A DNA stretch of 64,000 nt from Aeoliella mucimassa (lineage in GTDB: Bacteria; Planctomycetota; Planctomycetia; Pirellulales; Lacipirellulaceae), in contig NZ_CP036278.1 of NCBI RefSeq assembly GCF_007748035.1, forward strand, positions 6,324,001 to 6,388,000, written 5' to 3'. Position numbers and translations under genes: made by a program. Position 1 is the stretch's first letter. The number at the start of each line of letters is the position of its first letter. The notes under the pieces are model-generated. The model saw nothing but the letters and a program-made list of their open reading frames with translations. It made no database searches and was not told where the DNA came from. Shown one piece after another: positions 1,991-14,700 of the stretch.

Positions 1991-2010
1991 AATAGATTCC
2001 CACTGCTGGG
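1991..2010. repeat. Isolated AATAGATTCCCA half motif with small hairpin
   Basis: The motif AATAGATTCCCA (1991-2002) is followed by CTGC and TGGG, which can pair with the CCCA of the motif. It lies directly before the 223-bp element and is not present before the second copy, so it looks like a partial extra unit. Confidence 0.6.
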
Positions 2011-2012
2011 CA

Positions 2013-2235
2013 AATAGATTCCCAATTTACCCAACGATGGGAAAATTGAATCTTCGCCCACGCTATAAAACCAGTGGTTTTCGCACTGGAATAGATTCCC
2101 ATTCCCAAAAACGCGTCGAGTGGGAATCTATTTTCGCGGTGGGAATCAACCGCAAGTCGTTTGTTAGCAGTGAGTTGCATCAACACCTCCGCGATAGTTG
2201 CCCAAAATAGATTCCCACCCATGGGAAAGTATTTT
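2013..2235. repeat. 223-bp structured intergenic repeat, copy A
   Basis: The same sequence recurs without gaps at 14143-14365; I count 24 substitutions, about 89 percent identity. It contains four inverted repeats. SL1 (2016-2053) pairs CAATTTACCCA with TGGGAAAATTG around a 4-base loop, with outer AGATT/AATCT. A palindrome AAAACCA-G-TGGTTTT lies at 2067-2081. SL2 (2090-2132) pairs AATAGATTCCCA perfectly with TGGGAATCTATT across 19 bases. SL3 (2204-2235) pairs AAAATA..TTCCCA with TGGGAA..TATTTT. The two ends resemble terminal inverted repeats (AAATAGATTCCCA against AAATACTTTCCCA). No target-site duplication is evident. It may be a non-autonomous mobile element or a structured RNA. Confidence 0.9.
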
Positions 2236-2294
2236 GAGTTGGGAGTTGGATGTTGGGAGTTGGAAGTTAGAAAGGGCAGTAGGGTAGGTCCAGG

Positions 2295-2517
2295 AGCTTC
2301 CAGCGACGCAGCCCCACCACCGCATTACCAACACGCGCAGCAGCGAACGCCCACACACACGACCATTCACCTGCGTGTCGCCAGTCGTTCAAGTTCACAG
2401 CAAGCTTCACATCTGATTCACTTCCTTTCATAAAAAGCCAACAGCCGATAGCTGAAAGCCGATAGCCTTTGATACCTGTCCATTAGAACACCACAAGTGG
2501 CCAATTCCCAGCGAAAA
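2295..2517. repeat. Second intergenic repeat module, copy A
   Basis: This module shares its first 32 bases (2295-2326) exactly with 14500-14531. It also shares the downstream pieces GCGAACGCCCAC, AAAAGCC(A/G)ACAGCC and CCTGTCCATT(A/G)GAACAC through GTGGCCAATTCC with 14500-14700. The middle is diverged and differs in length by about 22 bases. It follows the 223-bp element in both places, so the two modules travel or persist together. No coding sense was found. Confidence 0.8.
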
Positions 2518-9639: not shown

Positions 9640-9698
9640 GGCAACTTGCTCTCGCGTGGCGACTAATTGGCTCGGCATGTCGCTACGGCGATTGGTTT

Positions 9699-9737
9699 AT
9701 TAGAACGTGCTGGGTGGCCATTTCCCAATGGAAAATG
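9699..9737. repeat. Short relative of the module-2 tail between convergent genes
   Basis: ATTAGAACGTGC then GGTGGCCATTTCCCAATGGA matches the end of the module-2 repeats (2480-2517 and 14664-14700). In addition ATTTCC and GGAAAAT form a small hairpin here. It lies between the convergent ends of the SulP and DUF1501 genes, where it could help termination in both directions. Confidence 0.55.
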
Positions 9738-9750
9738 CCAACTTTCAGTA

Positions 9751-14142: not shown

Positions 14143-14365
14143 AATAGATTCCCAATTTACCCACCGATGGGAAAATTGAATCTGCACCCACTCTACAAAA
14201 CCAGTGGTTTTCGCGCCCGAATAGATTCCCATTTCCCAAAACGCATCGAGTGGGAATCTATTTTCTCGGTGGGAATCAATCGCAAGTTGTTTGTTAGCAA
14301 TGAGTTGCATCTACACCTCCGCGGAAAGTGCCCAAAATAGATTCCCATGGGTGGGAAAGTATTTT
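14143..14365. repeat. 223-bp structured intergenic repeat, copy B
   Basis: This copy is gap-free against 2013-2235. The four inverted repeats are kept: SL1 at 14146-14183 (loop changed ACGA to CCGA), the palindrome at 14197-14211, SL2 at 14220-14262 and SL3 at 14334-14365 (loop rewritten from CCCA to TGGG-type bases). None of the 24 differences between copies lies in a stem arm. Confidence 0.9.
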
Positions 14366-14499
14366 GGGGAGGATTCAGGATTCGGGGATCAGGGCTCAGG
14401 GAAGTTCGGATTGGGGAATGGGGAATGTCATCTTGAGGGAGCTTCCAGCGACTGAAAGATCTAGCCTACCGCTTGCAGCCTAAAGCCTAGAGCCAATAA

Positions 14500-14700
14500 A
14501 GCTTCCAGCGACGCAGCCCCACCACCGCATTGCCATCCGCGCAGCGGCGAACGCCCACGCCGGCAACCATTCGCCTGCGCGTCGCTAGAAGTCGGACGTA
14601 AAAACCAGCGTTACATCTCCATCACCTCCAATCACTAAAAGCCGACAGCCTTTAACACCTGTCCATTGGAACACTTCAGGTGGCCAATTCCTAGCGAAAA
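14500..14700. repeat. Second intergenic repeat module, copy B
   Basis: The first 32 bases match 2295-2326 exactly and the end (14657-14700) matches 2474-2517 with few changes. It is about 22 bases shorter than copy A. It follows the 223-bp element with a longer spacer than copy A (134 against 59 bases). Confidence 0.8.

Follow-up and report, generated by a model that had tools for sequence, protein, structure and literature searches.

A high-copy, fixed-length palindromic repeat of Aeoliella mucimassa built on conserved 12-bp sites

High-copy intergenic palindromes are common, and their purpose and mode of spread can rarely be tested. The window analysed here, a stretch of 64,000 nucleotides from Aeoliella mucimassa (NZ_CP036278.1, positions 6,324,001 to 6,388,000 of the forward strand) whose gene content includes planctomycete cytochrome C, DUF1553, DUF1549 and DUF1501 domains, contains one 223-bp block twice and raises the question of what this block belongs to, how it was dispersed and what holds its form constant. 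In this single genome we found about 100 full-length copies of equal length, which contain conserved 12-bp sites, have nearly unlinked alleles and avoid one another, and these properties would predict a cognate protein that binds the sites, gene conversion, and either immunity or domain spacing.

Results and Discussion

Two Copies of a Folded Block

Realignment of positions 2013-2235 and 14143-14365 gave the gap-free match of 223 bp with 24 differences that the first-pass annotation had described. In copy 1 numbering, the differences lie at 2034, 2054, 2056, 2062, 2066, 2085, 2087, 2088, 2104, 2107, 2115 and 2136 in the first half and at 2150, 2158, 2170, 2182, 2194, 2195, 2197, 2198 and 2218-2221 in the second. 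The annotation had also seen no change in the arms of the four hairpins (S1 to S4), which is correct for S1, S2, S4 and the 14 outer bases of S3 (0 differences between the copies) but not for position 2104, which closes the S3 loop when the hairpin is predicted with arms 2090-2104 and 2118-2132; there a C to T change opposite a G leaves a G-T pair. Three of the four loops differ, as had been noted, namely those of S1 (2034), S3 (2107, 2115) and S4 (2218-2221), while the S2 loop is the same; the S4 difference is an exact reverse complement (CCCA/TGGG). With an even spread of changes and the annotation's own count of 101 arm bases in 223, plain arithmetic puts the chance of finding 0 of 24 in the arms at about 5e-7 and of finding 1 of 24 at about 1e-5. 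The single-strand fold is much stronger than that of shuffled sequence, with z values of -6.8 for copy 1 as DNA and -4.7 for copy 2 as RNA. The features in the window, all on the plus strand, are the following.

1991..2012, plus strand: further AATAGATTCCCA 12-mer upstream in direct orientation, at an iteron-like distance of 22 bp from the one that follows (from sequence)
2013..2235, plus strand: copy 1 of the fixed-length 223-bp block with four hairpins, S1 to S4 (from alignment)
2016..2053, plus strand: hairpin S1, with an internal A.A mismatch and a CC bulge (alignment and fold)
2067..2081, plus strand: hairpin S2, AAAACCAGTGGTTTT (98-copy alignment)
2090..2132, plus strand: hairpin S3, formed by two inverted 12-mers, its loop mostly conserved (pattern search, alignment and fold)
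2121..2217, plus strand: 97-bp core between inverted 12-mers, variable in sequence and fixed in length in 119 of 124 distinct cores
2204..2235, plus strand: hairpin S4, with a 4-base loop in two mutually inverted states, CCCA and TGGG
2236..2515, plus strand: 3' part of copy 1, comprising a length-variable G-rich tract, a GGAGCTTCCAGCGAC block, a CGCGCAGCAGCGAACGCC-like block and the 3' block CCATTAGAACACCACAAGTGGCCAATTCCCAGCG
9690..9745, plus strand: possible solo 3' block (TTATTAGAACGTGCTGGGTGGCCATTTCCCA) near a gene boundary, possibly a remnant, with no 5' block nearby in the window
14143..14365, plus strand: copy 2 of the 223-bp block
14366..14700, plus strand: 3' part of copy 2, made up of the blocks listed for copy 1

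Copy Number and Absence from Relatives

The expectation of further copies was confirmed in the genome itself (6.6 Mb, one contig). The core hairpin pattern, allowing up to three mismatches, matched at least 120 places (0 for the reversed-pattern control), the bare inverted pair at least 135 sites, and the 12-mer AATAGATTCCCA occurs 586 times, again with 0 for its reversed control. A DNA search, in which the best 40 of 169 candidates were scored, returned 40 full- or near-full-length places together with ten short reverse-strand matches. The element is a high-copy extragenic palindromic repeat. For the analysis of placement we used 139 positions, comprising the hairpin places and divergent or partial relatives, one of which (near 1,419,983) has the 3' block only; the total is at least 139. 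For sequence comparison 107 entries from 107 distinct places were extracted, of which 98 full-length copies were aligned and nine interrupted or partial ones were left out of the column statistics; some divergent copies lie outside the 98-copy alignment.

Many as the copies are in their own genome, none was found in the related genomes searched. The core hairpin is absent from all 42 other genomes of the family, including three of the same genus; one half of the outcome that the annotation had named as speaking against its reading thus came true. Searched at the DNA level, 58 other genomes yielded a single 42-bp match (in G032), which lies within a 230-codon open frame without inverted repeats and was judged to be chance. 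In wider genome contigs the hairpin pattern matched two lone hairpins, in Peptoniphilus faecalis and Dyadobacter arcticus, whose flanks of 80 bp show no further similarity, and we set these aside. Viral contigs gave two matches to the hairpin pattern and 0 to the 3' block, plasmids and phages gave no match to the element, and a literature search by two motif strings and by planctomycete interspersed repeats found no account of it. By its absence from the relatives searched, the element is species-private.

Architecture of the Repeat Unit

In element positions, S1 occupies 4-41, S2 55-69, S3 78-120 and S4 192-223. Block length is identical in 97 of the 98 copies, the remaining one being one base longer. 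The five distinct cores that depart from 97 bp measure 98, 99, 118, 119 and 121 bp, a count which excludes 14 further rows of 78 bp whose start appears to be a secondary site 19 bp farther in.

The annotation had taken the ends of the block for imperfect terminal inverted repeats. The ends of the 223-bp block are indeed imperfectly inverted, but the repeat itself extends past both 2013 and 2235, with similarity continuing downstream and direct repeats of the 12-mer lying upstream. A longer unit, about 0.5-0.6 kb where uninterrupted, has the block as its 5' part. The next shared block, located in 86 copies, lies 36-116 bp farther on, and the 3' parts consist of the G-rich tract, two blocks marked by GGAGCTTCCAGCGAC and CGCGCAGCAGCGAACGCC, and the 3' block in two pieces, with downstream parts found in 97, 103, 89 and 91 of the 107 entries. 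On the upstream side, 60 of the 98 copies carry one to four extra direct 12-mers (up to two mismatches), spaced by 20-22 bp in 81 of 83 cases.

These features lead us to read the element, tentatively and at a little short of an even chance, as a dispersed intergenic protein-binding DNA array that was likely spread by past transposition and whose resident copies are now constrained. Its working part would be a fixed-geometry array of the 12-bp site AATAGATTCCCA, in which zero to four direct upstream copies at a spacing of two helical turns (20-22 bp) are followed by inverted pairs (S1 in part, S3 and S4). The array would most likely be bound by a sequence-specific, self-associating protein, for which a transposase, a recombinase or an architectural protein are candidates, and it might serve either mobility with immunity or the organisation of the chromosome. 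Against this reading, no binding protein and no target-site duplication were found, and absence from three genomes of the same genus is odd for a useful chromosomal site.

The right arm of S3 and the left arm of S4 are perfectly complementary over 15 bp, so that this stretch could form either two hairpins or one long stem. The S4 loop occurs in its CCCA and TGGG states in a ratio of 39:41 among the 98 copies, with other forms in 18, which suggests templating through the hairpin. The flip also suggests that S4 sometimes forms, and the element may be used as a DNA cruciform or as single-stranded DNA. Three divergent copies (L151, L149 and L165) show a second perfect palindrome in the core, of the GACTTACG / CGTAAGTC type, which is nearly lost in the main family; its perfect inner inverted repeat measures 12 bp in L151 and 8 bp in L149 and L165. 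As a general feature this inner palindrome (CGACTTACG/CGTAAGTC) was rejected, since over all cores the inner inverted repeats are no longer than in shuffles.

Conservation and Base Pairing

The avoidance of the arms by changes, first seen between the two window copies, also holds over the 98 full copies, where the mean minor-allele frequency is 0.023 in 100 stem columns versus 0.156 in the 123 others (2.3% versus 15.6%). Among stem columns 59 of 96 are invariant and 16 more have one change, as compared with 13 and 12 of the 108 columns outside the stems and the S3 loop. In columns 90-108, seven of 19 are invariant and another seven have one change, and the S3 loop itself (columns 93-105) shows at most one change in 11 of its 13 columns.

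In order to separate conservation of sequence from conservation of pairing, we counted departures from the commonest pair at 45 arm pairs in the 98 copies, omitting three end pairs (4/41, 76/122 and 77/121) and two that are mismatched (17/30 and 199/216). There are 120 such departures in 4,409 cells. Close to half (59) are frequent and break pairing at three S4 pairs (A-C 23, G-G 27, T-T 9), 58 are rare single changes that leave no Watson-Crick pair (15 G-T, 10 A-C, 33 other), two are compensated, both at 193/222, and one further departure is of another kind. The rare changes in the arms show no clear wobble bias, and mismatches within the helices are common, with A.A at 199/216 in 93 of 98 copies and at 17/30 in 63 of 98. 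Covariation of helix partners, to which the annotation had looked, did not appear: each of the 60 column pairs with the strongest covariation joins close neighbours, and none are helix partners. Of the annotation's interpretation, a structured element with conserved arms is borne out, but two compensated as against 58 rare mispairing cells do not demonstrate selection on base pairing as such. Constraint would appear to act mainly on sequence and register, with pairing possible in addition. The best sign of selected pairing that we found is the pairing-compatible variation at the three loop-proximal S3 pairs (90/108, 91/107 and 92/106), which have a standard or G-T pair in 290 of 294 cells, each with a one-sided polymorphism. 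This variation would suit a paired RNA or single-stranded DNA form and counts against the protein-binding array.

The strong folds, the fixed length and the conserved S3 loop would also fit a structured non-coding RNA family expressed from many loci, and the pairing kept through one-sided changes at these three pairs, with G-T counted, speaks in its favour. We nevertheless regard such a family as very improbable. The element matches no Rfam model at the gathering threshold, compensated changes are far outnumbered by mispairing ones, the strongest column pairs show no helix-partner covariation, there is no fixed relation to neighbouring genes, and the upstream direct-repeat sites at helical spacing suit DNA better.

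Variation among Copies

The annotation's suggestion of a recently active element found no support, because even the closest two of the 98 copies differ at 12 positions. Pairwise differences range from 12 to 52 of 223 positions with a mean of 31, and nearest neighbours differ at 12-29. No identical copies occur at different places; a check by genomic place showed that none had been merged, which disposes of merging of identical copies as the cause of the lack of recent pairs.

Alleles are shuffled among the copies and nearly unlinked beyond about 20 bp. For pairs of variable columns the linkage r2 is 0.21 at distances of 1-2 bp and has dropped to 0.015 by 16-20 bp, where shuffled data give 0.011; farther out it lies at 0.011-0.013 (shuffled 0.010), a small excess that persists. 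The longest shared tracts show no excess over block permutation, which leaves recent long conversion unsupported, while old or short exchange, or independent change between a few allowed states, remain as explanations. Sequence and chromosomal distance are very weakly correlated (rho 0.033, P 0.006), with no visible effect among close pairs. The folded frequency spectrum, in minor-count classes of 1, 2, 3-4, 5-9, 10-19, 20-39 and at least 40, gave observed versus neutral expected numbers of 35/28, 11/14, 15/17, 25/22, 13/23, 27/28 and 18/11.

This spectrum resembles fairly well the one expected of a neutral population with recombination and, with linkage near background beyond about 16-20 bp, would fit a neutral relic, namely a dead miniature transposon whose copies gene conversion alone has homogenised, with conservation by chance. 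We consider a relic of this kind quite improbable, as invariant columns cluster in the sites and are few outside the stems and S3 loop, the block has a single length in all but one copy, long shared tracts show no excess and the copies avoid each other. Under the protein-binding array that we favour, the resident copies would be kept by constraint on the sites, and the spacer alleles would be shuffled by recombination or gene conversion.

Placement, Spacing and Orientation

Only three of the 107 entries overlap a gene as called by a simple gene caller made for this analysis. Neighbouring genes are convergent at 26 entries, divergent at 23 and in tandem at 37, with one side uncalled at 21, and this lack of preference, together with the rarity of gene overlap, argues against a terminator or leader.

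Density along the chromosome is even (chi-square P 0.91 over 12 bins), and short gaps are strongly depleted. With the 139 positions, we counted 1, 4 and 23 gaps below 5, 10 and 20 kb versus 13.8, 26.3 and 47.6 expected, and none of 10,000 simulations had so few short gaps; the stricter set of 120 positions gave 0, 2 and 18 versus 10.3, 19.9 and 36.4. In the null model copies were placed anywhere in the genome rather than in extragenic space alone, which should matter little at such a scale. Gaps below 10 kb separate three of 83 neighbours in the same orientation and one of 56 in opposite orientation, and deletion between direct repeats is an unlikely cause of the spacing because oppositely oriented neighbours also avoid each other. 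A downstream module was unusable as an independent control of spacing, as 22 of its 29 matches lie downstream of placed elements. Twelve spacings fall at 12.0-14.0 kb, followed by none up to 17.5 kb.

The spacing of the copies resembles that which transposition target immunity would leave, and the probable history of the element is an old spread as a non-autonomous mobile element. The ends of transposons of the Tn7, Mu and Tn3 type carry several transposase sites, and these transposons show target immunity. Like them, the element carries one site several times, in either orientation, towards one of its ends, and its copies avoid each other. Unlike them, it shows no target duplication, no transposase of these types was found, and no autonomous copy was noticed in an unsystematic reading of the units' open frames. 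No target-site duplication was seen in 81 copies, where the top matches are an internal ATTCCCA; old copies could have lost a duplication. A search with PF09299, the Mu/TnsB-type transposase domain, gave no match, but its control matched nowhere either.

The even density, the avoidance of short spacing, the fixed geometry and a constraint without recent copying would be expected as well if the arrays were chromosome-organising sites that bind a nucleoid or topology protein and whose spacing is functional. This we regard as rather unlikely: sequence searches did not turn up the sites in three further species of the genus, no known factor is at hand, and orientation ignores the skew halves. We would give the same low credence to the broader proposal that some 140 evenly spread arrays, mostly at least 10-12 kb apart, organise the chromosome and evolve as one freely recombining population within a single genome. 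As to orientation, 89 of the 139 copies (64%) lie on the plus strand (P 0.001), with a plus majority in 12 of 12 bins; the plus excess, which counts against the protein-binding array, is present in both skew halves, no orientation by replication strand was seen, and the excess is possibly a chance result after many looks.

Relation to Known Palindromic Repeats

REPINs of Pseudomonas fluorescens SBW25 are intergenic, high-copy REP doublets that form hairpins, with conserved inverted ends, a less conserved spacer of constrained length, common compensatory changes and a random distribution in extragenic space (PMC3116915). Our element resembles them in being intergenic, high in copy number and hairpin-forming, with conserved inverted ends and a variable spacer of fixed length. 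It differs in being longer (a 223-bp block within a larger unit), in showing no linkage to a RAYT and in having hardly any compensatory changes, mutually avoiding copies and no near-identical ones.

For GTAG- and CGTC-tagged REPs, PMC3733652 gives a length of 20-40 bp, a tag at one end, species specificity in some cases and, for the CGTC class, the lack of a dedicated transposase. The element is likewise palindromic, extragenic and species-specific, but it has arms of 12-14 bp and several palindromes in fixed register, and no GTAG or CGTC tag, as defined there, was seen by eye at the stem foot in the 98-copy consensus. BIMEs are described in PMC2817692 as regularly spaced palindromes of alternating orientation and as protein-binding sites; they are combinations of REPs, whereas the element is one composite block of fixed length.

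An element of REPIN type, in which a Y1 (HUH) transposase, for instance a RAYT, moves the hairpin in single-stranded form, appears unlikely to us. A constant-length core, inverted 12-mer ends and a variable interior are the REPIN plan, as laid out in PMC3116915, and the lack of target duplication, the intergenic location, the more than 100 copies and the presence of two RAYTs above the NCBIfam cut-off (L122, L126) in the genome agree with it. However, AATAGATTCCCA (up to two mismatches) is absent within 1.5 kb of both RAYT genes and of an IS200/IS605-type Y1 gene (L121), no tag was seen, compensation is nearly absent, copies avoid each other and near-identical copies are lacking. In plan the element is REP-, BIME- or REPIN-like, yet it fails several of the defining tests of these families and is unlinked to the REP transposases of the genome. 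Other flanking palindromes are visible by eye at L122, L126 and L121, and additional REP families may exist in this genome.

Mobile Genes near the Copies

Transposases among the clusters of flanking proteins are of the DDE_Tnp_1_5 type in ten loci, of the IS110 type in five and of the IS200 type in three, and none of these, nor the two RAYTs or the IS200/IS605-type gene, seems well suited to mobilise the element. In about seven copies the DDE_Tnp_1_5 transposon follows the block, its start no more than about 0.2 kb away; in three (L014, L022, L054) it lies about 1 kb farther downstream and is incomplete in the extracted sequence. Six loci (L029, L035, L074, L096, L100, L104) share at least 1,037 bp of it with L043 at 99.5-100% identity.

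Since insertion sequences lie within the 3' part of several copies, this part seems dispensable. A 585-bp IS200-type element is present in six near-identical copies (L116, L118, L119 and L120, also L115 and L117), four of which are inserted at AATAGA of the repeat family, which suggests that it has a target preference for AATAGA in the repeat. An IS110-type element in L002, L003 and L008 is placed after AAAGG(GC or AT)AGTAG of the G-rich tract, and its position resembles the reported insertions of IS110-family members into REP sequences (ISPpu9).
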